IMG/VR virus record: IMGVR_UViG_3300048057_000022
Coordinates: 1 to 62,465 of that record
Strand: one strand, 5' to 3'
Length of the DNA: 62,465 nucleotides
Origin: a virus
Shown here: piece by piece, positions 5,391 to 41,467 of the stretch
How the letters are laid out: each line of letters starts with the position of its first letter
Numbering within the stretch: position 1 is the first letter of the stretch
Program-made: the position numbers and the translations under genes
The notes under the pieces: model-generated
What the model saw: only the letters and a program-made list of their open reading frames with translations
Told to the model about the DNA's origin: nothing
Databases searched by the model: none

Positions 5391-6245
5391 ATGGCTAACA
5401 AGCTGATGTTACACGCCGGAGCGCACCACGCCACGCTGGAAGAGGTCCTGGACGTCACGACGCCCGAACCTACCGACACGCACTTTCCCATTCCCCACAA
5501 TACCCTCATCGACTCCGTAGTTGGCAACCTGGAGGGTATCGGATTGACAGTGAAGGACGCGGATTATGGGCTCTGGGGTGACGACGGAGAAATGATGTTC
5601 GCCGTCATGAGTCTTCAGAATGGCAATTCCGGGATGGCTCAGGACGACTACGAAACGATTCTCGGACTCCGTAACGCCCACAACAAGCGGTTCTCTGCTG
5701 GCCTGGCCTGCGGTAGTAGGGTGTTCGTTTGCGACAACCTGGCCATGAGTGGGGACGTCGTGGTTTTCAGGAAGCACACGAAGTTCATCATGCGGGACCT
5801 GGACCGGCTCTTGTTCGAGGCGCTGGGCCGACTACATGAGGCCAAGATTGCGCAGGATCTGAGGATCGCGAACTACAAAGCCACCCCATTGACCGATTCG
5901 GCGGCCCACGACGTTTTAATCCGCTCTGTGGACGCTCAGGTGATGGCTAACGCCACTATCGCTAAGGTCCTGAAGGAATGGAGAGAGCCCACGTTCGAGG
6001 ATTTCGATCCCCGGACGGCCTGGAGCTTGTTCAATTCCTTCACTCAGGTACTCAAGGAAGGCAACCCGCTGGACCTGACCCGGAAGACCACCAGGCTTCA
6101 CGGCCTACTGGATCTCGTAGTGGAGGCCACGGAGAACCGGGGCCTAGTAGACGACCTGGTAAATGGGCGTGCGATTCTACCAGCCGTTGAGGTGGACCAC
6201 GGGGTGAGTGGGTTGATCGGCACGGGGGAGGTACAAGATGCCTAA
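5391..6245 (+). CDS. DUF932 family protein, 284 aa
   Basis: The signature GLRNAHNKRFSAGLACGSRV followed by FVCDNLAMSGDVV is typical of DUF932 (phage/plasmid-related protein family). The length is within the family range. The biochemical role of the family is not established; it occurs on plasmids and phages. The ATG directly follows the upstream TAA. Its last codons overlap the next gene by 8 bases. Confidence 0.85.
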   Translation: MANKLMLHAGAHHATLEEVLDVTTPEPTDTHFPIPHNTLIDSVVGNLEGIGLTVKDADYGLWGDDGEMMFAVMSLQNGNSGMAQDDYETILGLRNAHNKRFSAGLACGSRVFVCDNLAMSGDVVVFRKHTKFIMRDLDRLLFEALGRLHEAKIAQDLRIANYKATPLTDSAAHDVLIRSVDAQVMANATIAKVLKEWREPTFEDFDPRTAWSLFNSFTQVLKEGNPLDLTRKTTRLHGLLDLVVEATENRGLVDDLVNGRAILPAVEVDHGVSGLIGTGEVQDA

Positions 6246-12008: not shown

Positions 12009-12022
12009 GGGGAAAACCGAAC

Positions 12023-12250
12023 ATGGATGTAAAACTGAACCCCGTGCGGTGCGGTCAGTGCGATGGTACTGGGCGGACCCCCACCCTTGAGCCCTGCGAA
12101 CGCTGCAACGGCATCGGCCACACCTACGAGATGAAGGTGGACGCAGTGAATCTCCTGAAGCTCGTCACCCCTACGGTCAAGGGTACGGCGACCTCCAGGC
12201 CACCGATAAACCACAGAGAGGACAAAGATGAAGCTGACGAAGAAAAATAA
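12023..12250 (+). CDS. DnaJ-type zinc-finger mini protein, 75 aa
   Basis: Two CxxCxGxG motifs, CGQCDGTGRT and CERCNGIGHT, as in the cysteine-rich domain of DnaJ, without a J domain. Phages often carry such minimal CxxCxGxG proteins; they may bind unfolded or host proteins, but the role is unproven. The gene end overlaps the next start by 23 bases. Confidence 0.75.
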   Translation: MDVKLNPVRCGQCDGTGRTPTLEPCERCNGIGHTYEMKVDAVNLLKLVTPTVKGTATSRPPINHREDKDEADEEK

Positions 12251-12428
12251 GGAACACATCGACAGCCTAGGCTACGAGTCCCTGTTGCGCCACAGCCGCT
12301 TTGCACCTGTGGGTGACCACTGGTTCCAGGGCGAGACGGGGGACTATTGGCTGAAGAGGATGGGCGAACTGAAGGACCAGGACCCTGCCGGTGCTGTTGC
12401 GGCCTCGAAGAATATAGGCTTCGACTGA
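12228..12428 (+). CDS. Conserved small phage protein, 66 aa
   Basis: The pattern HIDSLGYESLLRHSRFAPVG, then FQGETGDYW and AVAASKNIGFD, is one I recall from many phages without assigned function. AAGATG context with GGACAAAG upstream. The stop overlaps the ATG of the first sulfotransferase-like gene (TGATG). Confidence 0.75.
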   Translation: MKLTKKNKEHIDSLGYESLLRHSRFAPVGDHWFQGETGDYWLKRMGELKDQDPAGAVAASKNIGFD

Positions 12429-13030
12429 TGCTGATTCACCCGGAGAAAAAGCTGGTATTCGGCCTTCATGCGAAAGCGGCGGCGAGATGGCTGGAGCGAG
12501 TCTTCATACGAAGGGGGTTCAAGATCGTGGGCTCCCTCCACGAAGGGCCCATGAACCTGACCACGGTCCTGAAGGTGCCGCCCGAGAAGGTGTGGTGGGA
12601 GGCTGACCCCAGCGAATGGGACTACGCCTATGTGGTACGGAACCACGGTGATGCTCTGTTGTCCTGGTGGACCACGTTCAGGGGGGCGGTGCCGGAGGCG
12701 GACCAGGAAAAGGTGTGCCCCGTGTTCCTACGGGAGTGGCCTCGCCAGTACGCCAGACTCTTCCCGTGTTCCCGCCGCCTGTGGAGGTTCGTCTGGGAGA
12801 TGCCGCAAGCCAGCATCCTCCGCTTCGAGGCGCTGGGCCAGGACGTACACCGCTACCTAGAAGCCTACGACCTGGGGCTCTTGGAACCGTGGGAGATGGA
12901 GAGGGACCACAAGCACGTCACCGTAGGCAAGCCGGTGGGCGACTGGCGGCAGCACTACCACCCGGAGGCCGTAGAATATCTGAAGGAAGTCTATCACGTC
13001 GAGGCGTACCGGCTGGGATACAGGTTTTAG
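12428..13030 (+). CDS. Sulfotransferase-like P-loop protein A, 200 aa
   Basis: The N-terminal strand and loop KLVFGLHAKAAARWLERVF (residues 8-26) fit the 5'-phosphosulfate-binding region, and YAYVVRNHGDALLSWW (66-81) fits the 3'-phosphate motif with R71 and S79. The C-terminal part EMERDHKHVTVGKP and the Tyr/His-rich helix also occur in the gene at 13280, so the two are paralogs. Sulfotransferases move sulfate from PAPS to a sugar, lipid or protein. The loop here is AKAAARW instead of a classical KxGTT, so binding may be weakened. The substrate is unknown; cell-surface glycans are a guess. Confidence 0.65.
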   Translation: MLIHPEKKLVFGLHAKAAARWLERVFIRRGFKIVGSLHEGPMNLTTVLKVPPEKVWWEADPSEWDYAYVVRNHGDALLSWWTTFRGAVPEADQEKVCPVFLREWPRQYARLFPCSRRLWRFVWEMPQASILRFEALGQDVHRYLEAYDLGLLEPWEMERDHKHVTVGKPVGDWRQHYHPEAVEYLKEVYHVEAYRLGYRF

Positions 13031-13043
13031 GTGGAGGGCCCAG

Positions 13044-13283
13044 GTGAGCCAAAAAACGAAAATGCGTCGCCCTTCCACGAGTAAGCGTGTGCTGCGTGCC
13101 CTCGAACTCGGACTCGACGCCGTGAATATAGAGGAACTGGACCAATACCAAAAAGAGGAGCACAAGCGGGCCTCGGCGTGGATCGCGAACATCCGTGAGT
13201 ACAACCGATTCAGGACCAAGCTAAGGGCCAAGTGGCACCTACTGAAAATCCGGGCGGAGAGAAAAGAGAAGCGAGGCAAATGA
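13044..13283 (+). CDS. Basic helical protein, 79 aa
   Basis: GTG start, 13 bases after the upstream stop, with GGAGGGCCCAG before it. Very rich in Lys/Arg with helices LRALELGLDAVNIEELDQY and a C-terminal RAERKEKRGK. It lies between the two sulfotransferase paralogs. A nucleic-acid-binding or scaffold role is only suggested by charge. Confidence 0.6.
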   Translation: MSQKTKMRRPSTSKRVLRALELGLDAVNIEELDQYQKEEHKRASAWIANIREYNRFRTKLRAKWHLLKIRAERKEKRGK

Positions 13284-13885
13284 ACGTTCACTTCGAGAAG
13301 AAGATCGTATTCATGCACCATCAGTGCGTGGGGTCCACGGCCACCGTGCCCCCCCTGAAGGCTCGTGGGTTCGAGAACCTGGGCGGTCACCACGATGGGC
13401 CGTGGTCTTTGCGGCCCCACCGGGACCAGAACTACTACGGTTGGTGGAAGTCGGACCCGAGGAAGTACACCTATTGCTGCACCGTTCGGAACCCCTTCTC
13501 GGTCATCCTCTCCCATTGGTGGCAGTACGGCGAACCGGACGGGGGCAGGGGTCCGGTGACGGTCGAGTTCCTGGAAGATTTCCTGGTTCGTGGAATCAAG
13601 TATTTCCCGAACCGGGGGAAGCTGTTCAGGTTCGCATGGGAGGGGACGCCTGGTCCGCTCCTGGTCCTCCACGCCGAGGACTTACAGTCGCACCTCAACC
13701 TCCTATTCGACGAGTTCGGCCTCCCCCTGCTCCAGGCCAACGAGATGGAGCGCAAAAACGTGACACCAGGCAAGCCCGCCGTGAACCTGGGGGGCCACTT
13801 CACCGAGGAGGCCCTCGCCTGGATTGAGAAGTACCACGCCGAGGAGCTAAAGCGCTTCGTCTACAGCCTGGAGGACCTGCCATAA
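13280..13885 (+). CDS. Sulfotransferase-like P-loop protein B, 201 aa
   Basis: KKIVFMHHQCVGSTATVPPL (residues 7-26) contains a CxGST core expected of a PAPS-binding P-loop. YTYCCTVRNPFSVILSHWW (63-81) has the R70...S78 pair of the 3'-phosphate site. LVLHAEDLQSHLNLLFDEFG and a C-terminal EAL-helix ending EELKRFVYSL complete the fold pattern. It shares EMER...VTPGKP and the RN-x(6)-LS-HWW block with the gene at 12428. It overlaps both neighbours by 1-4 bases. Substrate unknown. Confidence 0.7.
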   Translation: MNVHFEKKIVFMHHQCVGSTATVPPLKARGFENLGGHHDGPWSLRPHRDQNYYGWWKSDPRKYTYCCTVRNPFSVILSHWWQYGEPDGGRGPVTVEFLEDFLVRGIKYFPNRGKLFRFAWEGTPGPLLVLHAEDLQSHLNLLFDEFGLPLLQANEMERKNVTPGKPAVNLGGHFTEEALAWIEKYHAEELKRFVYSLEDLP

Positions 13886-14187
13886 TGGGGACCAAGAGCA
13901 GGCGTAGGAAGATGCTGAGGCTCCAGGAGAAGATGCGAAAGGAAGAGGCCAGGCGAAAGGTATCGAACCGCCGCCTAGCCCCTGACCACATTCAACGGCT
14001 GAAGGCCCTCAAGATGGAGGGCGAGGCCACGTTTGTTCACCCGAGCACGATGCCCAAGGACTCGCCGAACTACCGGCGCTGGGCTGAGGAAAACTGCTCA
14101 TGTCCATGCCACAACTGCGCCAGCGCGGGGGAGGAAGACTTCCTTGACCCCGGCTGTCCGGTCCACAACGAGGAGGAACGAGAATGA
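13885..14187 (+). CDS. Hypothetical protein, basic N-terminus and CxCxxC motif, 100 aa
   Basis: MGTKSRRRKMLRLQEKMRKE forms a highly basic helix. The middle is neutral, and the end holds CSCPCHNCASAG and CPVH, likely a zinc site. ATG overlaps the upstream stop by one base. Function unknown. Confidence 0.65.
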   Translation: MGTKSRRRKMLRLQEKMRKEEARRKVSNRRLAPDHIQRLKALKMEGEATFVHPSTMPKDSPNYRRWAEENCSCPCHNCASAGEEDFLDPGCPVHNEEERE

Positions 14188-14594
14188 GGTATTATCGCAG
14201 GCTGTTTTTGGGAATCGTCTTAGCCCTACTGGCCGTAGGCTGCAAGGGCGACATGGGGCCGGTCGGCCCCTCGGGAGCGGAGGGTCCACAAGGACCCCGT
14301 GGAACCCAAGGGGTGGCCGGACCCGCTGGTCAGGATTTTCAATACTTCATCGGCTCAGGCCACGTTGCGTCAAACGGAACGTCCATCATCAACCTACCTG
14401 TGGGGGCCGGGAGCCTTGGGCAGCAGCCACTCGTGACTTGCTACCACGGTCACGACGGGGCGTACCTCATCATCGGAACCGACGTTGGCTATGGCGGAGT
14501 GTCCTGCGGAATGGTTTGGAGCGATGGGAGGTGGAAGGTCACACTGATAGGTGGCGTGCCCGGCTGGGTCTTTCGCGTCGTGGCGGTTTGGTGA
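14184..14594 (+). CDS. Collagen-like lipoprotein, 136 aa
   Basis: The signal peptide MRYYRRLFLGIVLALLAVGC ends in a lipobox (LAVGC), so the mature protein should be lipid-anchored at Cys20. Residues 22-50 are Gly-X-Y triplets (GPVGPSGAEGPQGPRGTQG), a short collagen-like stalk, followed by a ~85-residue beta-rich domain. The layout is that of a surface-displayed trimer on the host envelope. Expression from the early operon suggests superinfection exclusion or surface remodelling, which is inference. Confidence 0.75.
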   Translation: MRYYRRLFLGIVLALLAVGCKGDMGPVGPSGAEGPQGPRGTQGVAGPAGQDFQYFIGSGHVASNGTSIINLPVGAGSLGQQPLVTCYHGHDGAYLIIGTDVGYGGVSCGMVWSDGRWKVTLIGGVPGWVFRVVAVW

Positions 14595-15031
14595 TGGGGG
14601 CCCCAAGGGACAAGGCGGCGATGGACGCAGTGGGGAAGTTCCTCGCCGCCTACCCGCCCCTTCATAATCCCTCACATGACACCGAACGCTATGCCGCTGA
14701 TAAGTTGGCCACGTTCGGCGCACTCAAGATACGCGAAATGTGCCTAATGATGTTGTACTCCAGAGGGGTCAGGGGGATGACGGGCGCAGAGGCGGTGAAG
14801 ATACTTCGCGGCTCGATCAATCGGTCGCTGAAGGAATCTACGGTGCGCACCCGGTTCACCGAATTGGTGGACATTGGTCTAGCTCGAAACTCAGACGAGC
14901 GCCGAGATAACGACAGCGGCAACCCGGAGATTGTGAGAGTGCTTCGCCCCGAAACCATTGCCGCACTGGATCAGCTCTCCCTTATTTCCACCGTACTCAC
15001 GGGCGTCTCACCGGAGGGTTGGGAAGAGTGA
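14594..15031 (+). CDS. Winged-helix-like regulator, 145 aa
   Basis: The ATG overlaps the upstream TGA. Residues ~55-110 read like a winged helix: a helix pair, SLKESTVRTRFTELVDIGLA as recognition helix region, then a basic wing (RNSDERRDND). It may regulate or modulate an enzyme; the DNA target is unknown. Longer frames upstream are out-of-frame readings of the lipoprotein gene. Confidence 0.55.
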   Translation: MGAPRDKAAMDAVGKFLAAYPPLHNPSHDTERYAADKLATFGALKIREMCLMMLYSRGVRGMTGAEAVKILRGSINRSLKESTVRTRFTELVDIGLARNSDERRDNDSGNPEIVRVLRPETIAALDQLSLISTVLTGVSPEGWEE

Positions 15032-15372
15032 GGGCCTGGATCGGAGTAGACTTGGACGGCACCCTGGCGGAGTACCACGGCTGGCAGGGCGTAGACCATG
15101 TCGGCCCACCCATACCAAAGATGCTAGAACGGGTGAAGGGCTGGATCAAGGCTGGCAAGGAAGTCCGCATCTTCACGGCCAGGGTTGGTCCCCAGCCTGA
15201 CGATGTGAACGTACACTACGTACGCAGCGTTATCCGGAGTTGGTGCGAGAAGCACGTTGGCTGCGCCCTGACGGTCACCGCGACCAAGGACTTCAGCATG
15301 GTCGAACTCTGGGACGATCGGTGCGTTCAGGTGATACCGAATACAGGAGAACGGGTCGATGGGAAAGACTGA
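15028..15372 (+). CDS. HAD-superfamily phosphatase, 114 aa
   Basis: GTG start overlapping the previous stop. WIGVDLDGTLAEYHGW (residues 4-19) has the DxDGT nucleophile motif, VRIFTARV is motif II-like, and ELWDDRCVQVIPNTG ends with the acidic motif IV. The short length means no cap domain. Small phage HAD proteins act on nucleotides or polynucleotide 3'-phosphates. It directly precedes a nucleotidyltransferase with a 14-base overlap, so the two may share a nucleic-acid end-processing job. Confidence 0.8.
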   Translation: MRAWIGVDLDGTLAEYHGWQGVDHVGPPIPKMLERVKGWIKAGKEVRIFTARVGPQPDDVNVHYVRSVIRSWCEKHVGCALTVTATKDFSMVELWDDRCVQVIPNTGERVDGKD

Positions 15373-16168
15373 AGTAACGGGACGAGAAGGCGCCCTCGCG
15401 GCGATACTGGAGGAGCGGCCCTCGTGGGCCAACAACCTTATCCTGGCCGGGATTCGCGGGTCTGACGCCCATGGCACGAAGCTCCCACCGTATCACCCGA
15501 TGGCCACGGACGACACCGACACCTTTGGTGTCTCAGTCCAGACAACGGACTGGTACCTGGGCCTAGGGGGTTACCACAACTCCGGGCGGCAGCATTGGGA
15601 CACGGCTGGCGACGACTACGACCATCTGATCTACGACGTGCGGAATCTGTTTGGCCTGCTCTCCAAGGGAAACCCTAACGTCCAAGGCTGGCTGTGGTCG
15701 GAGCCAGAGGACCACCTCCTGGTGACGGGTCCGGGGCGGCTGATCCTAGAGAATCGGAAGCTATTCCTCTCCAGGGCGTGCATCAAGGCCCTGACCGGCT
15801 ACGCCTACGCCCAGATGAAGAAGATGGACAAGTCCCAGTACCAAGGATACATGGGCGAGAAGCGGAAGAGGATCGTCGATAAGATGGGTTATGACGTCAA
15901 GCACGCGGCCCACTGCGTCCGGCTCCTCCAGATGGGCATCGAACTAATGGAAACGGGAGAGATGCGAACCCGGAGGCCAGCCGACGAAGCCGAGACTTTG
16001 AAGGACATTAAAGCCGGGGAGTGGGGGTTTAGGGATGCCGAAGCACTGATCCAAGTCCTCTGGGACAGAAGCCGAGAGCGTGAGGGCGATCTTGACCTAC
16101 CCGACTTGCCCGACAGGGACACCGTGAACGACCTGCTGGTTCACGTTATTTCCTGGGCCAACAAATGA
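15359..16168 (+). CDS. RlaP-type nucleotidyltransferase, 269 aa
   Basis: GIRGSDAHGTKLP (31-43) followed by DDTDTFGV (51-58) is the GS...D-x-D signature of Pol-beta-type nucleotidyltransferases, in the arrangement of the RlaP/YcgL-type family often found in phages. YDVRNLFGLLSKGNPNV and GYDVKHAAHCVRLLQMGIEL are also typical of that group. Members are associated with RNA repair genes, but their substrate is uncertain. No RNA ligase is visible in this window. Confidence 0.75.
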   Translation: MGKTEVTGREGALAAILEERPSWANNLILAGIRGSDAHGTKLPPYHPMATDDTDTFGVSVQTTDWYLGLGGYHNSGRQHWDTAGDDYDHLIYDVRNLFGLLSKGNPNVQGWLWSEPEDHLLVTGPGRLILENRKLFLSRACIKALTGYAYAQMKKMDKSQYQGYMGEKRKRIVDKMGYDVKHAAHCVRLLQMGIELMETGEMRTRRPADEAETLKDIKAGEWGFRDAEALIQVLWDRSREREGDLDLPDLPDRDTVNDLLVHVISWANK

Positions 16169-16397: not shown

Positions 16398-17579
16398 ATG
16401 GGGGAAGAAATGTTTGGGCCATCTGAGATCAGGGAGCGAATTCAAGGGGACAAGGACCCGATGCGACGAGCGATAGCTTACCTAAGCTACGCTGGCCTCG
16501 GTGCCGGGGAGATCCACCGACTCGGGTGGAACTCGATGCAGGCACAGTCAGTAAGGTTACCACGACCCTCTGACAGTCACGGTCTGGGGATCAGTTACGA
16601 CCAGGCGAGGGCGCTGCTTTCTTCTGTGGAGGAGGCCGGGAACCTCCGGGATCAGATCATCGTGGAGGCCGGGCTGGCGTGCGGGCTGCGACAGATCGAG
16701 CTTCGGCGCCTCCTGATCGTGGACATTCAACGCAGGAACGGCCGGATGTTCCTGTCCGTTAAGGGGAAGGGGGGAGGCAGGCGGGTTGTGTATGTTCCTA
16801 GGCCCCTCCAGGAACGGATCACCCGCCTTGTGACTAGCGGTGAGCGCTACCTAAAACGAACCAAGACGGTCGGCGGTTCTCACCCTAGTCGCCCCCTCTT
16901 CCAGTCCTACACTGGTGGGCCCCTCTCCGAATGTGGGATGAGGCGCATCATCAACCGCCATCTGAAGAAGGTGGCCCCCGACGCTACGGCCCACGGACTG
17001 AGGCACACCTGCGTCACCTGGCTCCTGAATAGCGGCGCGACCCTGGAGCAGGCCATGGAGATCGCGGGCCACACTGAGGCCGGTAGTCACGAACTCTATG
17101 CGGCTGCCGGCGGCGACTGGTTCGTGGGGGCCTGGAGAAAGGCTCATCCGATCGCACAGTGGGGGGTCGGTGTGGGATACGCCCACGTTGCCGGGAGAGA
17201 GTACACTCGTCGCATGTCCAGGGGCACCGAGAGGGTGGTGCCCGTCCCCACGGAGATAGTAAGCGCCGTCCTTGCGGGCTTTCACGAGGGAGGGCTCCCG
17301 AGGGACACCGTGTCCAAGAAAATGATGGCCTGGATCTTCAGCGACCTGGACTACGACCCGTCGATGCTACGGAAGGCTGGGGCCATTCACATGGCAGAGG
17401 CCGGGGCGCACCCGTTCCTAATTTCCCTGGTCCTGGGGGTCACTCCCGGCTATGTGGTGGACAGCAAGTTCGATAGGATGGGGCCGAAGGCCGAGGAGGA
17501 GAGGGTGGACGCCATCGAGCGGGCCTGTGAGCGCCTCTATGAGGCCGAGAACGTTGACCTAGAGCTTAGGTCGGCCTAA
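16398..17579 (+). CDS. Tyrosine recombinase/integrase with flanking degenerate repeats, 393 aa
   Basis: The central catalytic domain has R98 (CGLRQIELRRL), K124 region (VKGKGGGRR), H199/R202 (AHGLRHT), H225 (AGHTE) and Y234 (HELYA), a full tyrosine recombinase set. The N-terminus (PMRRAIAYLSYAGLGAGEIH) looks like a decayed copy of the domain start. Residues 324-358 (LRKAGAIHMAEAGAHPFLIS onwards, with Y352) look like a decayed copy of the second half. There is no classical SAM-like arm-binding N-terminus. It may integrate the phage or resolve multimers. The ATG follows GGGGGAAG. Confidence 0.85.
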   Translation: MGEEMFGPSEIRERIQGDKDPMRRAIAYLSYAGLGAGEIHRLGWNSMQAQSVRLPRPSDSHGLGISYDQARALLSSVEEAGNLRDQIIVEAGLACGLRQIELRRLLIVDIQRRNGRMFLSVKGKGGGRRVVYVPRPLQERITRLVTSGERYLKRTKTVGGSHPSRPLFQSYTGGPLSECGMRRIINRHLKKVAPDATAHGLRHTCVTWLLNSGATLEQAMEIAGHTEAGSHELYAAAGGDWFVGAWRKAHPIAQWGVGVGYAHVAGREYTRRMSRGTERVVPVPTEIVSAVLAGFHEGGLPRDTVSKKMMAWIFSDLDYDPSMLRKAGAIHMAEAGAHPFLISLVLGVTPGYVVDSKFDRMGPKAEEERVDAIERACERLYEAENVDLELRSA

Positions 17580-33383: not shown

Positions 33384-35246
33384 TTAGGCGGGGCAGTTCA
33401 GGCCCTTCATCTTTGTAGCCCAAGAGCCATCACCGCCCGTGTTAAATTTAATTCGATACCAGTTGTCACCAGTAGAGGGAGTGAGGTGATTGTAATACTC
33501 AACCCCGGCCCCGATAGCGGATTCCAACAATGTCATGTCCCCAGGATCGGCAGAGATGTCCGACCACTCCAACCGGAAGGTGCTGCTAGTGTTTCCACCG
33601 TTGTCCCAGGTCAGGTCAGCCCGCTCGCTCGTCGGGCAATTAGAGTCGTCGAGCACACAGTCGAAGTCGAGCGGCGCGTTCGGCCAGGTGGTGCCAGACA
33701 CCGCAGAGGAGGGGGCGGACAGCACGTCGTCCAGCGTGTCCGAGTCCTCATTCGACGGGGAACTGGACTTGCCGCAGTCATTGAGCGCAATCGCACGGTA
33801 GAAGAACGTCGGCCCCTCAAATGTCACAATCAACTTGTAGAAATATTCCGTCTCTGGACTGAGCCCACCCCCACCGTCGTCGTCGTCGTAGGGGAAGTCC
33901 ACGAAGTCCAACCCGTCCTCGACCAGATTTCCAGGACCGGGCGTGAACCCGGAGGACAAGTCTCGGTACAGGGCGTATTCTAAGGCGTCCGGGTGGGCCG
34001 AAATGTCAACCTGGAGCGTGTCACTAGCAATCGGGTCCACGGAGTCGATGGTCGCTGTTCCAGCCGCCGTTCCGAGTCCGTTGTCGTCGTAATGCTCTAC
34101 GGCGGGCTCAATCGTGTTCGACAACAGTGTCCCGGTCCCTGGAGGCGTAAACGTGGAAGGGTGCCGATAAAGGGCGATGTTGTGGAACAGCCCGGCAACC
34201 GGATCGGTCCAATCAATGTCCATGTCGTCGTCTGGGTCGCCAGAGTCCTTGACTACCGTAAGGCCGGTAGGTGCGTCGGGCGAGCTACTGTACTGAACCG
34301 CCTCGCCGTCCCCCATCGTGTCGTAAGCCGATTCCCCTACTGCGTTCTCCGCCCTCACCTGGAACACGTACTCGTATCCGTCCGATGGCGTGAAGTCGTA
34401 AGACTCGTCTTCGGCGGCTGGCTCATCCTCGAAGAACCAGGAACCAAAGGCACCGCCGCACTCCCGCTCTTTGTATTCAAGGCGGAAGTTGTCTTCGTTA
34501 TCCGACATGTCCGTCCAGGTGACCTGCAAGACGGAGCCCACCTGAGAGGCAGCGACGTCCTCTGGAGCGTTCGGGGCCAGCCCTACTACGGTGGTGTTTC
34601 CGGTGACGCACGGCCCCTGCGAGTCGGGGTTGTATCCGCAGACGGCGTAGTAGATGATGTCGCCATCAACGAAGCCACCAGCATGGTCGTACTCCGTCGT
34701 CGGATCGCCTCCACCGGCTGGCCATGGATCGAAGGTCCCGTCAGCGTTTGTGGGAGGATCTCCGGTGAGGGCCGCATTCTTTTTCCAATAGACCTTGTAA
34801 TCCAACGCCTCGGGCACCATCGAATTCATTCGGATGAGAGTCGAGACGGCGTCAGAGATGTCGTCTTTCGGGTAGTCGGTCCACCAGGTCGGGGGAGCCG
34901 TGACCGGCGAGTACTCGGTGGTGCCGGTTGCCTGACCCGAGACTGCCCCTATGTGACCATAATTGAAGGGAGTCACCCGATACCAATACTTCGTGTTGTC
35001 CTGACGCCCACCGTCAACGTAAGGGCTTCCGGCCATCACGGTATCAATGAGAGCCCAAGATCCAGGCGATCCACCGGAGTCCGGTGCCCGTTCAATGTAA
35101 TGATAGGGGGCGAAGCTTGGGTGCGATACTGACCACGTTAGGGTCAGAGAGTTGTCCTCGTCGCCTACTGTGGGGTTGACGGCCAGGCCAGATGGCTGCT
35201 CTGGGACAGGATGGAAGAAGGCCGGTCCCTGCGCTGGAAACACCAT
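33384..35246 (-). CDS. Tail protein with fibronectin type III repeats, 620 aa
   Basis: ATG at 35246 overlaps the hub stop (ATGA); upstream codons belong to the hub gene in another frame. At least five FN3-like domains can be read from AVNPTVGDEDNSLTLTWSVS, VLQVTWTDMSDNEDNFRLEY, DSGDPDDDMDIDWTDP and TSERADLTWDNGGNTSSTF. FN3 domains are common in phage tail tips and may bind carbohydrate on the host. Confidence 0.75.
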   Translation of the reverse strand: MVFPAQGPAFFHPVPEQPSGLAVNPTVGDEDNSLTLTWSVSHPSFAPYHYIERAPDSGGSPGSWALIDTVMAGSPYVDGGRQDNTKYWYRVTPFNYGHIGAVSGQATGTTEYSPVTAPPTWWTDYPKDDISDAVSTLIRMNSMVPEALDYKVYWKKNAALTGDPPTNADGTFDPWPAGGGDPTTEYDHAGGFVDGDIIYYAVCGYNPDSQGPCVTGNTTVVGLAPNAPEDVAASQVGSVLQVTWTDMSDNEDNFRLEYKERECGGAFGSWFFEDEPAAEDESYDFTPSDGYEYVFQVRAENAVGESAYDTMGDGEAVQYSSSPDAPTGLTVVKDSGDPDDDMDIDWTDPVAGLFHNIALYRHPSTFTPPGTGTLLSNTIEPAVEHYDDNGLGTAAGTATIDSVDPIASDTLQVDISAHPDALEYALYRDLSSGFTPGPGNLVEDGLDFVDFPYDDDDGGGGLSPETEYFYKLIVTFEGPTFFYRAIALNDCGKSSSPSNEDSDTLDDVLSAPSSAVSGTTWPNAPLDFDCVLDDSNCPTSERADLTWDNGGNTSSTFRLEWSDISADPGDMTLLESAIGAGVEYYNHLTPSTGDNWYRIKFNTGGDGSWATKMKGLNCPA

Positions 35247-38200
35247 CAGCCGAACATGATTCCGGTAATGAGGGTGCCGCCTATATTCATGCAACAGAGG
35301 AGCATTATGTGATCGGCCCCGAGATTGTAAGGGGTGAACGGCCCATTCCCGTAAGCGCAGTTCCATCCACTCGCAAGCGTTAGATCAACGCCCGCCGTAT
35401 ATCCCAGGCACCTCAGCACAAAGGTTGCTCCATCCGGCACGTTCAAGGGGGCGGCGATGGTACGGTCTACGGTAAACGTCGTAGTCTGGACCGGGCCATC
35501 AGCGTAGTCGGGATTGTAGTCCGAGGTCGCGTTGGCGAAACTCGCTGGAACCCCAAGCACCTTCTCGTCGGTGCCAGACCTGGTGACCTCGAACATCCCG
35601 GCCAGGGTCAGGTTCGGCCCGCCGATTAGGGTGCCAGCTTGATTATAGATGTTCACCCCAGCACCGGACTCTTCCGCTGGGAAGACGTCGGCCTTTACCC
35701 ACGAGCCGGAGGTGCCCGTTCCACCAGCGCCGCTCCACCCTCTCACCCTCACCGGAATCGCTTCATCAGCCTGCGCTGAAGTGAAGTATCGAACGGCCAC
35801 GTACTCGTCTCGAAGCTCGTGGTCGGTGTCTGCCGCGATGTCACTCGTGTAGTTGTAGCCACCGGAGTCGGGAACTGGCGGGTCCTCGTCACCACCCTCT
35901 ACCTCGAACTCGATGGACGCAACGTCAGACCCGACAGCGAGGTGCAAGAGGATCGTGAAAGCGGCCCCGGTATAAAGTGACGGCTTCCAGTCGTAACCCA
36001 CCGCGACCGCCAACGGAGCCAGGGCGCCCGTCTCACCACCAGCGTTGTACTGGATCTCGCCCGTGAAGTCGCTCGCAGCGGGCGAAGACGTGCCCGTACC
36101 ACCGGCCCCGGTCCAAGCCCTGGCCCTGACGAAGAGGGTCTGACCGTCAGTCAGGACGCCTCCGCAGTTCGTCACTCCACTCTGGCCGTTCACCGGAGTC
36201 TCTGGGGTGCCGTCTGTGAAGTCGGCTGGCATGTCCGTAGCGTCGATGATGAACTCAACGGAGCCGCTGGACATATCTGGATCACCCGACCAAGACAGGC
36301 GAGGCTGGGTGCCGACCAGAGTCAGGCTGAACTTGGCGTCGGGGATAGCGTCCAGGCCGAAGTTGTGGGAGCCGATGATCCAGGCGTCCCCGTTACCGTC
36401 CTGTAGGTCCACGCGATAGGCGTAGAACAGGATCGCCGAGTGCTTCCCGCCCAACGCTACCCCCGTAGTGCTGGTGTACGTGTAGGGATCGGATTCGTCC
36501 ACCTCTCCGCCGTTACCGGCCCAGTCGTCTCCACCCGCCTCTGGGTCGTCGCCGGGGTCGAAGTCTCCGCTCCCGTTGAAGGGGAGGAACGCGGTGCCCG
36601 TAATGAGTCCACTCGGGTCATTCGGGAGGAGGGTGATTTTCCCGTAATTGGAGGCCCGGAAAGCCTGGACGCCCATGGTGGGCGGAACGGTGTCGTTAGC
36701 CTTGACCGTGTGTCGCCAATCGTCATCGCACTGATTCCCCCCCGCCGCCACTTCGCTCCACGCTCTGACCCTGATATGGAGAGCCTCTGTCGGCAGTAGG
36801 TCCACCACGAGCGTAGTCAGGCCCGAACGGGAGTTGACGATGGTTCCGCCGCCGTCCAACTCGACCTCGCTCGGCATGTCGTCTGGCGGCTCCCTCGCAA
36901 TCAGGTATTCGACACTTTTCGTGTCCTCATCACCATCATGGCGGAGGTAGACCACCGGGCCAACCACCGTCGCGGAGCATTTGATACTGGGGATGAAGTC
37001 CTTGTCGAACTCGAAGCTGTCCACCACCCACGTACTGGTGACACCACCGTCCGTGCTGTACCGGAAGGCGTAAAACAGCGTGGACTTCCTGCCCTCGACC
37101 AGGGCAACGCCCGTAGAACTGGTCAGGTTGTAGCCGGGATCTGCGGTGACGTCCCGTTCGTCCCACGGATCGTCCGGGTCACCTGGATCGAGTTCGTTTC
37201 CGCCCTGGATCGGCTGGAACGCCGTTCCGTTGATGAGATTCTGGGGGTCGTTTAGCTCCAGCACGACGTTGCCGACAGCGCCGACCTGAGTTGGGATCGC
37301 CTTCACGGTCGGGACGATGGTATCGGACCCGAGGTAGATGACGAACTGCATGGCCTCGCTGGCCATGGAGGCTTCCTGGGTTGTGTCGTCCGTGGCCGAG
37401 GTCCGGTAGAACTGGCCCTCCACACACAAACACTCCCCGGAGGCCAGCACATACGACTCAAGGTCCTGGTAGTTGAACGTGTTGCCGCTGTACTCTGAGC
37501 CCAGGCCGTCGTCGAATGCGATGCTGTCCCAGGACTCGCTCCCGACGTCCACCTTCTTGACCCTGAACCTCCAACTCATGCAGTCGGAGTCGATGGCCTG
37601 CGGGATGATGACGGGGGTGCCGTCCTCCTCGGTGGAGTAGTTGAAGAACCCAGCGGGGCGAGCGTTCCCGTCAACGTAGACGCGGCCGGGGTCGTCGGCG
37701 GGCCTGAACATGAAGCCGGTGGCGTCCACGGCGTTGAATAGGATCACCTTCCTCGTGCCGCCCTCTGCTGGCTTCACGACTTCCACACTGATGTCGTAGG
37801 GGTCCGCTACTAGGCCGGAGGTGGTGTAGTCACCGGGCCAGGTGGGTTCAGCGTCGCCCTCGTCGATGACGATGTATCCGAAGTTCACCTGCGCGGAATC
37901 GTCCGTAGCGACAAACCGGACGCCCTCCTTGGTCACATCGTCGGGGATGTATGGGAACCAGACGACCCTCGGGTTGTTGTCCGCCTCGTGATAGGTGTAC
38001 CGGAGGACTGTTATTCCGCTTTCCCCCTGCGTGCAGGCATCGTCCAAGTAGAAGACGATCCCCACGTACCTTATCTCACCGTCCGCAGTAAAGGTGTGGA
38101 TGTTTTCGCCTCCGACAGCCACACCGTCCTCGGTTAGGATGTTGCCCGTGGTTTGGACGTCGTTTTCGGTGGGCTCTGTATCAGAGTCCAGGTACTTACA

Positions 38201-41200
38201 GCCTGTCCCGAGGAGCCACCCAGGGGATAGATAGAGGTCGCCGTCGTCCTCGTCCAAGTGGGGGTTGCCGAACCCGATACCCGCTGTGATCTGCTCCTGC
38301 ACCACGGGGGCCGCAACATAAATGTCGTACTCCGAGGTACCATCTGGAGTGACGTCCCACGCTTCAGTGACGGTGAGTTCCGTGGCCGTGTTCGATGCAA
38401 TCACGCGAATCTGAGGATCGTCGGCATCGTACCCCGTGCCCGCGATGATCTCCACTGAGCACCCGTACCACTCATCAGTCGCCCACGCCTTCGCCGTATC
38501 GTTCAGGGTCGTGCTCGTGTTGCCCCCAGACGAGGTGCCATTGTCGATCGGGGCGTCTCCCCTAACCCCGACAGCGCTGGTCAGAACTGGGCGCACCTCA
38601 ACCATGCCGACCCTAGAAGCACGGAAGGAGTGCTTCCTGGTCTTCGATATGCCCAACTCCGACCAGCTTGTCCAGGCTAAGGTCTGGGGATTCCGGTAAC
38701 GCATCTCGATGATGACGTACCAGTTGGCATACTGCCACTCTGGCTGGTCCCAGTCCACCGTCACCAAGGGCTGCTCACCATCGAAATCTATATCGTGGTC
38801 GATGGCCACCGTGGTAACGTGAGGAGGAATCCCGTGAGGCGGCTTGAGCGTCGAGGAAATGTCAACTGAGTCGAAGTCGTCGGTCGGAAAATTCAGATAG
38901 ACGTGGTCCCTTATGACCTCGCAGGTCAGCGAGTATGCAAGGCCCCCACCGTCCTCTATCCTTACAACACGGGCAACCTCGTTGGCGATGCCGCTAATGT
39001 CGTGATTGATGAGGACGATGTCGCCAATCTCCAGAACCATCCCCTCGATATTCAGGCCGGGGACGTAGAACTCGAAGTTCTGATCCAGGCCCTTTCGAAG
39101 CTCGTACCACCCGTTCCTGACGGCCTGTTGCCACTCGGTGGTGGCCTCCATTTTGACCGACTTCTCATTCAGGCCGAACTTGTCGTAGTGGTAATTGCCC
39201 TGGTCGTCTTCGTAGGTATCGGGAATAGGAACCGTCGCGTCCCTACCCTGGTCTTTCGTGGACTGGTAGCTCGCCACTACCTGGTTAGTTAGTTCGTGCA
39301 GGGCCGTCTTGTGGCGCACCTTGATGGGGCCGACGTTGTCGATGTTTAGTTCCAGGGCGTAGATGGCGAAGGTGCCGCCTACGCTCGGCGTCGGGCTAAA
39401 CGCGCTCGATACGGTAAGGGTGCTGGCCGTGTTCGATGCGATGGTCCTCACCTGACCAGCCCCGGTCCCGGTGAGGATCTTCACCCTCAACCCCGTCAGG
39501 AGGCCGCTCACCCCACCATCTGGCCACGTAGAGTCCGTCAGGCCGTTCCTGGTACTCTCCGTGATAATAGTGGACGTTGCCCCCGTAATAGTGCCCTTAC
39601 CCCCCGTGGGGGCGTCCAGCACGATACCGACCTTACCGTCCTTGGCCACCAAGGAACCACGGCAAGCCTGGAGGAGCATAGCCAGCACGTCGGCACGCTT
39701 CCCGGACTTCACGTACAAGTCAGACCTATACCTCTCGACAGAGATAAGACTCTTGTCGAAATCGTAGACCGAGATGGTGTCCTCAGCGTAGTCGGCCCAG
39801 TCGATAAAAGAACCGAGGTCCACAGAGCTTGTGGCAAGGCCAGCCGACCACCGATCGCTCTCATCTTCACGTTCGGGGGCCGTCAGGACGTCGAGGATCT
39901 GCCAGACGGGGTTCCGTGAGTATTCGTAGGCACCCGTTATGGGCGTGCTGCCGGAATACGCGTACTTTTGGACCTTCTTCCCCTTGTACTTGCACTGGAT
40001 GTCGGGAGCCCTGACCGCCCAATAGCGAGTCCTCGCAAGGTATTTCCCAGGCACGGGTCCGAAGAATGGGTTCCACCCCACCGGGTACTGGTTCTCCCAG
40101 ACTACGTTCGTGACCTGGGGCTCAAGGTCGTAATTCTCGGGAAGCTCCATGATGAAGTACCCGACATTCCTGAGCCCGCCATGCCCTGGGATCTCCTTGT
40201 CCCGGTCCCACTGTGGAAAGAAGTCCGAGGGAGCCTGAGTTTTCGTCCCCACGAGGATGTCGAACTTATCGTCCCAGCCCTGGTTGACGTAATACTGTGT
40301 GCTACGGAGCGTCGCCCCGTCCAAAAGGACGTCTTCCTCGACAGTGTCGATGGCGGTATCCAGCAGCCCCTCGCCAATCACACAGACAGCAAACGGCCCG
40401 TCCCTGGTCGAGTTCCAGGCTGCCCACGCCTTCGTGCCACCGCCAGCGCGTGAGTGAACGCCCACGACCAAGGGAGTCGTCCAGCGCGTACCGTAGGGGA
40501 TCGGGATAATATTGCCAACCACCCCGTCCATTTGGGCCACAACGCCCTGCCGGGGCTCGGCGTACCCGAACTGCTCCCGGAAGTAGTCCATGCCGCCGAA
40601 CTTGTCCTGCTGCCGAGTGGCCTCTGCGAACTTCCAGCGCCTACCGCACTCGCGGATTATGTCACGCGGACACCCCTGGTAGACGATATAGTCACCGGCC
40701 TGAAGGGTGCCGCTCCAGGACAGGGTTGAGTTCAGTTTGATCTGGGAGTTGGCCAAGTCGGCCTCGGTCACGCGGAGGTTCGAGTAAATCTCGGTCCCGC
40801 CCGTCTCAGCGCTGTACCCGCCCCGCCAGATCGACACGTAGTTGGACGGGTAGTCGCTCGGCTCCAGGGTCACCCCGGCCTGTCCTGTCTCCGCCGACCC
40901 CGTCAGTGGAATCCACGAGGTGTGGGTGTACGCGGCCCCGGTCTGGACCTGCGCGGACGAGGTGTATCCACAGTTCGAGTCCGCGCTGCCGAACTCCCAC
41001 CCGCAGTGGTTCGTGATGATCCGACCGATGCTCCCGCCCCTGGCCATCCTGGCATCGGCCATGACGTTGATCGTCATCACCTCGGCGTCCACCTCGGGCC
41101 GGAAAATCGTGCCAGTGAACAGTTGGACGGGGCCCTCGAAGGTCGTGTAGCCGGGGTTCGTGGCGAAATACTGGCTTACCTCAACCAGGGCTCCATCGAA

Positions 41201-41467
41201 ATCGTTCGCGTTATGGTACGAGGAGAAGGACCAGTCCGCGTTGTTCAGCTTCACCACGATATGGTCGAGGCCGTCCGCCGCGCTCACAACGATGCGGGGC
41301 ATCTCCATGATGTCGCCAGTGTACGGCTGTGCGGAGATCGTCACGGCGTGCGTGGCCACAAAAAGCTCGGTGGCCCCGGAATCGACTAGCGTGATCTTGG
41401 CGACCACGACGGGGCGGCTCTGGTCCGCGTCCAGGATCGTCTGGATGGCCGCGCTGACGGATCTCAT
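35246..41467 (-). CDS. Giant tail hub/tip protein, gpL- and gpJ-like fusion, 2073 aa
   Basis: Residues 1-280 resemble minor tail protein L/DUF2163: beta-rich start, then C155 (NHCGWEFG), C166 (SNCGY), C266 and C274 (GCPRDIIRECGRRW), which could hold an iron-sulfur or zinc site. Residues ~300-900 contain hub-type sequence (LDVLTAPEREDESDRWSAGL). Two insert domains share GQVRTIASNTASTLTV and IRVIASNTATELTV. From ~1000 to the end come many FN3/Ig-like domains. It is a baseplate hub that joins tape measure, tail tip and fibres and probably touches the host receptor. Confidence 0.8.
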   Translation of the reverse strand: MRSVSAAIQTILDADQSRPVVVAKITLVDSGATELFVATHAVTISAQPYTGDIMEMPRIVVSAADGLDHIVVKLNNADWSFSSYHNANDFDGALVEVSQYFATNPGYTTFEGPVQLFTGTIFRPEVDAEVMTINVMADARMARGGSIGRIITNHCGWEFGSADSNCGYTSSAQVQTGAAYTHTSWIPLTGSAETGQAGVTLEPSDYPSNYVSIWRGGYSAETGGTEIYSNLRVTEADLANSQIKLNSTLSWSGTLQAGDYIVYQGCPRDIIRECGRRWKFAEATRQQDKFGGMDYFREQFGYAEPRQGVVAQMDGVVGNIIPIPYGTRWTTPLVVGVHSRAGGGTKAWAAWNSTRDGPFAVCVIGEGLLDTAIDTVEEDVLLDGATLRSTQYYVNQGWDDKFDILVGTKTQAPSDFFPQWDRDKEIPGHGGLRNVGYFIMELPENYDLEPQVTNVVWENQYPVGWNPFFGPVPGKYLARTRYWAVRAPDIQCKYKGKKVQKYAYSGSTPITGAYEYSRNPVWQILDVLTAPEREDESDRWSAGLATSSVDLGSFIDWADYAEDTISVYDFDKSLISVERYRSDLYVKSGKRADVLAMLLQACRGSLVAKDGKVGIVLDAPTGGKGTITGATSTIITESTRNGLTDSTWPDGGVSGLLTGLRVKILTGTGAGQVRTIASNTASTLTVSSAFSPTPSVGGTFAIYALELNIDNVGPIKVRHKTALHELTNQVVASYQSTKDQGRDATVPIPDTYEDDQGNYHYDKFGLNEKSVKMEATTEWQQAVRNGWYELRKGLDQNFEFYVPGLNIEGMVLEIGDIVLINHDISGIANEVARVVRIEDGGGLAYSLTCEVIRDHVYLNFPTDDFDSVDISSTLKPPHGIPPHVTTVAIDHDIDFDGEQPLVTVDWDQPEWQYANWYVIIEMRYRNPQTLAWTSWSELGISKTRKHSFRASRVGMVEVRPVLTSAVGVRGDAPIDNGTSSGGNTSTTLNDTAKAWATDEWYGCSVEIIAGTGYDADDPQIRVIASNTATELTVTEAWDVTPDGTSEYDIYVAAPVVQEQITAGIGFGNPHLDEDDGDLYLSPGWLLGTGCKYLDSDTEPTENDVQTTGNILTEDGVAVGGENIHTFTADGEIRYVGIVFYLDDACTQGESGITVLRYTYHEADNNPRVVWFPYIPDDVTKEGVRFVATDDSAQVNFGYIVIDEGDAEPTWPGDYTTSGLVADPYDISVEVVKPAEGGTRKVILFNAVDATGFMFRPADDPGRVYVDGNARPAGFFNYSTEEDGTPVIIPQAIDSDCMSWRFRVKKVDVGSESWDSIAFDDGLGSEYSGNTFNYQDLESYVLASGECLCVEGQFYRTSATDDTTQEASMASEAMQFVIYLGSDTIVPTVKAIPTQVGAVGNVVLELNDPQNLINGTAFQPIQGGNELDPGDPDDPWDERDVTADPGYNLTSSTGVALVEGRKSTLFYAFRYSTDGGVTSTWVVDSFEFDKDFIPSIKCSATVVGPVVYLRHDGDEDTKSVEYLIAREPPDDMPSEVELDGGGTIVNSRSGLTTLVVDLLPTEALHIRVRAWSEVAAGGNQCDDDWRHTVKANDTVPPTMGVQAFRASNYGKITLLPNDPSGLITGTAFLPFNGSGDFDPGDDPEAGGDDWAGNGGEVDESDPYTYTSTTGVALGGKHSAILFYAYRVDLQDGNGDAWIIGSHNFGLDAIPDAKFSLTLVGTQPRLSWSGDPDMSSGSVEFIIDATDMPADFTDGTPETPVNGQSGVTNCGGVLTDGQTLFVRARAWTGAGGTGTSSPAASDFTGEIQYNAGGETGALAPLAVAVGYDWKPSLYTGAAFTILLHLAVGSDVASIEFEVEGGDEDPPVPDSGGYNYTSDIAADTDHELRDEYVAVRYFTSAQADEAIPVRVRGWSGAGGTGTSGSWVKADVFPAEESGAGVNIYNQAGTLIGGPNLTLAGMFEVTRSGTDEKVLGVPASFANATSDYNPDYADGPVQTTTFTVDRTIAAPLNVPDGATFVLRCLGYTAGVDLTLASGWNCAYGNGPFTPYNLGADHIMLLCCMNIGGTLITGIMFG

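Follow-up and report, generated by a model that had tools for sequence, protein, structure and literature searches.

Two paralogous sulfotransferase-fold proteins with degenerate, differing P-loops are conserved around a small basic gene in a tailed phage lineage

Two similar genes in a 62,465-base IMG/VR virus record (IMGVR_UViG_3300048057_000022, taken in full and hereafter the window) raise the question of whether a phage carries a pair of PAPS-dependent sulfotransferases and whether both copies could work as enzymes. The window encodes a terminase, a major head protein, tail proteins, a DnaB helicase, a YqaJ recombinase and a tyrosine integrase, a gene content indicating a tailed phage with temperate features. 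Copy A (200 aa, 12428-13030) and copy B (201 aa, 13280-13885) are located on the plus strand, in a module that ends with the integrase, and the virion genes lie on the minus strand. Between A and B, positions 13044-13283 (plus strand) encode a 79-aa basic protein (pI 10.8), here called the linker, which had no match in Pfam or PHROG. Start and stop codons of the A and B frames overlap with those of adjacent genes (TGATG at 12426, ATGA at 13280 and TAATG at 13883). Neither protein contains a long hydrophobic stretch, so both are probably cytosolic. PAPS is made in the cytosol; the window proteins that were scanned included no enzyme of PAPS synthesis.

A sequence-only reading of this DNA had described A and B as tandem paralogs. 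Their paralogy was confirmed by 31% identity across 197 residues (E 2e-23) and by a local alignment score of 213, against a maximum of 63 among 1000 shuffles; their direct adjacency was not, and because of the intervening 79-aa gene the word tandem requires a qualifier. Likewise, the EMER...VTxGKP motif and the long C-terminal helix that closes both models were found in both copies as proposed, but the R-N...L-S block (RNHGDALLSWW in A, RNPFSVILSHWW in B) has five intervening residues, R-N-x5-L-S, and not six.

Three related viruses were found, IMGVR_UViG_3300033153_003825 (G001), 3300009506_000027 (G002, from Mai Po wetland sediment, sample MaiPo-8; PMC6461988) and 3300033388_002168 (G005). 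Each of the three carries one A, one B and the linker, which in every case sits between the two copies, with further genes also occupying the A-B interval in G001 and G005; in these viruses and in the window, the integrase gene is found downstream of the set. A and B from the four viruses formed separate clades (support 99/98 and 97/96), indicating that the duplication predates these four viruses. Pairwise dN/dS was about 0.2-0.45 for A and B where dS was unsaturated, a rough estimate since many dS values exceeded 1, and both copies are under purifying selection (dN/dS < 1). In the more distantly related G003, whose terminase is 56% identical, a related integrase was present and no A, linker or B was seen; this record is a fragment, in which absence is weak evidence. 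Of such more distant viruses, the records L014 and L015 (terminase 55-56% identical) yielded neither A nor B, and no linker was found in L014. A tblastn search with A, B and two orthologs returned no meaningful match in named phages, the plasmids searched with A/B gave weak partial matches only, and no relative was revealed when 84,980 prokaryote species, each represented by a single genome, were scanned with A/B and the terminase. The virus lineage has no close relative among named phages.

The surroundings of the set were also inspected. A short way upstream of A, 12011-12250 (plus strand) encodes a small protein resembling a zinc finger, in which a DnaJ-like CxxCxGxG repeat scored below the cut-off (E 1.6e-4) and which matched antitermination Q-like PHROGs weakly. 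Near A and B, 14184-14594 (plus) encodes a 136-aa predicted lipoprotein whose LAVGC lipobox was recognised by eye. Its GxY repeats resemble collagen (Pfam Collagen, E 4.3e-5, below the cut-off), and no such gene was seen at the same place in the three relatives. A 117-aa HAD-like protein (15019-15372, plus; PHROG 415 polynucleotide kinase, E 2.3e-7, and also PHROG 1238) is kept in the three relatives, in G002 at a different genome location, and 15359-16168 (plus) encodes an RlaP-type nucleotidyltransferase (PF10127, E 6e-17). The integrase (393 aa, 16398-17579, plus) has a Pfam match confined to residues 68-236; its C-terminal part, which the relatives also have, might represent another domain in degenerate form. 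Elsewhere in the window are a DUF932 protein (5391-6245, plus; PF06067, E 4.1e-6) and a 2073-aa open frame (35246-41467, minus) on the same strand as the virion genes.

The sulfotransferase fold proposed for both copies was borne out, with evidence that was weak protein by protein and became strong once relatives were added to the profiles. In Pfam, A exceeded the Sulfotransfer_1 (PF00685) cut-off by 0.3 bits (22.3 against 22), B, which had no hit, passed none of the cut-offs of PF00685, PF13469 and PF03567, and no A/B ortholog was seen passing. The eight best hmmsearch matches in PDB were sulfotransferases, with weak E-values (0.014-0.24), and the B ortholog of G002 (P0007) matched PHROG 3347, galactose-3-O-sulfotransferase, over residues 6-138 (E 6.6e-4), a family that the other seven A/B proteins did not reach. 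Compared as profiles with annotated sulfotransferases, both A (hhalign 97%, E 1.6e-10) and B (97%, E 1.6e-11) aligned over their full length, and so did a six-protein A/B profile with seven distant sulfotransferases (185 columns, 98.4%, E 9.6e-15). Across all A/B profile comparisons the probabilities were 96.9-98.4%, whereas a terminase profile, also of a P-loop protein, gave 0.2% against the sulfotransferases as a negative control. The seven references consisted of one annotated bacterial sulfotransferase and six proteins found by similarity to it; the three scanned with Pfam were all Sulfotransfer_2. A Foldseek comparison, one of the checks that the sequence-only reading had suggested, recovered sulfotransferase superfamily members exclusively among the best 50 PDB matches of each model and no unrelated family, at TM-scores of only about 0.5. 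The AlphaFold model of A was of moderate confidence (pLDDT 71.5, pTM 0.63) and that of B of low confidence (pLDDT 60.7, pTM 0.61). Viral Foldseek matches of A included SIO1 gp5.1, P-SSM7, RSL1 and giant viruses. We consider it almost certain that A and B belong to the sulfotransferase superfamily.

Could the two copies bind and use PAPS? In Arabidopsis SOT18, Lys93, Gly95, Thr96 and Thr97 contact the 5'-phosphate, Arg177 and Ser185 contact the 3'-phosphate and His155 is the base; activity was undetectable in the Lys93Ala, Thr97Ala and His155Ala mutants (PMC5482895). We take the equivalent sites to be positions 16, 18, 19, 20, 71, 79 and 38 (A numbering), as mapped by motif order and the reference set, SOT18 itself being outside the alignment. 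This alignment comprised 16 sequences, the eight A/B proteins of the four viruses and eight references (the seven above plus SIO1 gp5.1), and the intactness of the PAPS pocket was judged by sequence alone. Profile alignments and this alignment placed the 5'-phosphosulfate-binding loop equivalent at residues 16-20 in both copies: K-A-A-A-R in A (codons 12473-12487, plus strand; region HAKAAARW) and C-V-G-S-T in B (codons 13325-13339, plus; region HHQCVGST, with Cys16 for Lys). The A proteins have Lys at position 16 in three of the four viruses and Thr in G002, and in all four the Gly and the final Thr are lost: position 18 is Ala, position 19 either Ala or Ser, and position 20 Arg. In B, position 16 is Cys or Ser (C/S/S/C) and never Lys or Arg, position 18 is Gly and position 19 Ser or Thr in all four viruses, and position 20 is Thr with one Ile. 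Both copies thus depart from the full [KR]-x-G-[GST]-T loop, and neither combines a Lys or Arg with the following Gly and Thr/Ser. These results corrected the idea of a weak P-loop in A only: A lacks the Gly-Thr part and, judged from the alignment, the residue missing from B is the one under stricter conservation, since all eight references have Lys or Arg at position 16 and vary at positions 18-20. A clean split, with the Lys in A and G-T-T in B, was considered and is weakened by the Thr at the Lys site of the G002 A, a virus in which neither copy has a lysine at position 16.

The rest of the site is better kept. By alignment, the putative active-site His38 is present in all A/B proteins and in 15 of the 16 aligned sequences, Arg71 in 8/8 and 16/16, respectively, and Ser or Thr at position 79 in the eight A/B proteins. 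The 3'-phosphate motif reads R71-N72...S79 in A and R70-N71-P72...S78 in B; B preserves its RNP form, and the A proteins have RNH, RHH or RKH instead. Copy A of the window also has GKPVGDW at 167-173.

Our leading reading, held tentatively at somewhat below even probability, is that a temperate phage carries two sulfotransferase-fold proteins, of which A would be the more capable catalyst and B its impaired companion. In this reading the two compact, probably cytosolic proteins stem from an ancient duplication, and a temperate tailed-phage lineage has their genes as morons (accessory genes) upstream of its integrase. A has the P-loop Lys in most viruses, and it also retains the active-site His, the Arg/Ser for the 3'-phosphate and, near the C-terminus, a GKPxGxW-like motif; it would thus bind PAPS and sulfate some molecule of the host or the phage. 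A surface glycan or a glycan precursor is a plausible acceptor, and the effect could be lysogenic conversion or superinfection exclusion. Surface glycans are often modified by bacterial sulfotransferases of this family. B, which has no Lys in any of the viruses, would be catalytically impaired and could shape substrate binding or regulate A. The kept fold, His and 3'-phosphate site argue that the cofactor site is still used, and binding of PAPS or PAP by at least one copy appears probable. Conservation of the Lys/Arg column in 8/8 references, together with the variable Thr97-equivalent column, favours A over B as the catalyst, and we judge catalysis by A to be evenly balanced; that B is a non-catalytic partner seems plausible but falls a little short of an even chance, and a surface glycan or lipid as the target is possible though rather doubtful. 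That the two copies lost different loop residues, always occur together and flank the linker gene speaks for unequal roles within one set, so that A and B may act as a specialised pair and not as two ordinary enzymes. The homology of A and B, their predicted fold, the co-conservation of the linker and the purifying selection are direct results; that the genes function as a set is inferred, as are the target, the time of expression, complex formation and activity. The main obstacle to A as the catalyst is the G002 protein without the lysine; the Ala in place of the loop Gly and the Arg at the Thr97-equivalent position, as well as the low-confidence B model, TM-scores of about 0.5 and the lack of a PAPS synthesis gene among the window proteins covered, also count against this reading.

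Instead, A and B might each be an active PAPS-dependent sulfotransferase in its own right, with an atypical P-loop, an acceptor of its own and another residue replacing the missing ones, an alternative that we regard as unlikely. A candidate for such a residue is His14, two positions before the Lys site, which is invariant in the eight A/B proteins and found in none of the references, and the loop does vary in other sulfotransferases (KTATI in SIO1 gp5.1, RAGSV in DLP_6, KVACT in Gloeothece); purifying selection on A and B alike would also fit. Nevertheless, the positive charge at the Lys site is lost in all four B proteins, and the corresponding Lys93Ala exchange in AtSOT18 left no detectable activity (PMC5482895).

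That both are pseudo-sulfotransferases, keeping the fold to bind a nucleotide (PAP, PAPS or other), a protein or a glycan and not to transfer sulfate, is again improbable in our view. It would account for the incomplete loop of both copies and for the missing Lys in both G002 proteins, and has a precedent in SULT4A1, conserved without known physiological enzymatic activity (PMC11275347), but the retention of the active-site His, the 3'-phosphate Arg and the Ser/Thr in 8/8 proteins suggests cofactor/acceptor sites in use. Less probable still, A, the basic linker and B could form an obligate complex whose active site is split or rebuilt, the Lys-bearing and Gly/Thr-bearing parts of the P-loop lying on different subunits, or both copies could have been repurposed to bind nucleotide; to our knowledge, no such phage effector has been described. 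Finally, chance or general P-loop similarity to sulfotransferases, with which the weak or absent Pfam matches of most A/B members and the lack of tblastn matches in named phages would agree, was rejected as very improbable on the shuffle test, the profile-profile E-values of 1e-10 to 1e-15 against 0.2% for the terminase control, the uniform Foldseek results and the PHROG 3347 match of P0007.

A phage-encoded sulfotransferase had been thought unusual, yet PHROG 3347, SIO1, DLP_6 and P-SSM7 are already known (PMC10580990; PMC8290583), phage sulfotransferases having been described (PMC8290583) and their role called unclear (PMC10580990). We regard A and B as a variant on known phage sulfotransferases rather than a proven sulfotransferase pair. 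What is new is the conserved A-linker-B set with degenerate, differing P-loops, in a lineage to which no named phage is closely related. Because the two copies are conserved together with the small gene and differ in what their active sites have lost, they provide a defined set for joint expression, which could reveal whether phages add sulfate to their own or host molecules and whether the fold also serves non-catalytic purposes.

Among the closest known systems are bacterial and phage Sulfotransfer_2 (PF03567) proteins, including AAY80_051 of Stenotrophomonas phage DLP_6, which match A/B as full-length profiles and share the order P-loop, His, RN(P)...(S/T) and C-terminal block. AAY80_051 is also a phage protein of similarly compact size (204 aa), and no A-linker-B set was seen around its gene; these relatives keep the P-loop Lys or Arg, whereas B never does and A not always. 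Roseobacter phage SIO1 gp5.1 (188 aa), a Foldseek match of the same length as A/B, resembles A in its PKTATIAI loop without the usual Gly, and also has an R-N-P motif and an H-E-P near the HEGP/HDGP of A/B, but it is a single gene, keeps the Lys and is only about 19% identical to A, with a long branch and uncertain placement in the tree. PHROG 3347 falls in the category of moron, auxiliary metabolic gene and host takeover, its galactose substrate being known from the family name only. The best PDB structural matches of A/B were the cytosolic SULTs SULT2A8, SULT2A1 and SULT7A1 (Sulfotransfer_1, PF00685). Solved SULT chains have roughly 280-300 aa and typically an intact K-S-G-T-T loop, in contrast to the about 200 aa and altered loops of A/B. 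The orphan sulfotransferase SULT4A1, among the Foldseek matches of A (1zd1), likewise has a conserved fold without shown physiological activity (PMC11275347), but it retains the PAPS-binding motifs and differs in loop 3, whereas A and B are altered in the P-loop itself.
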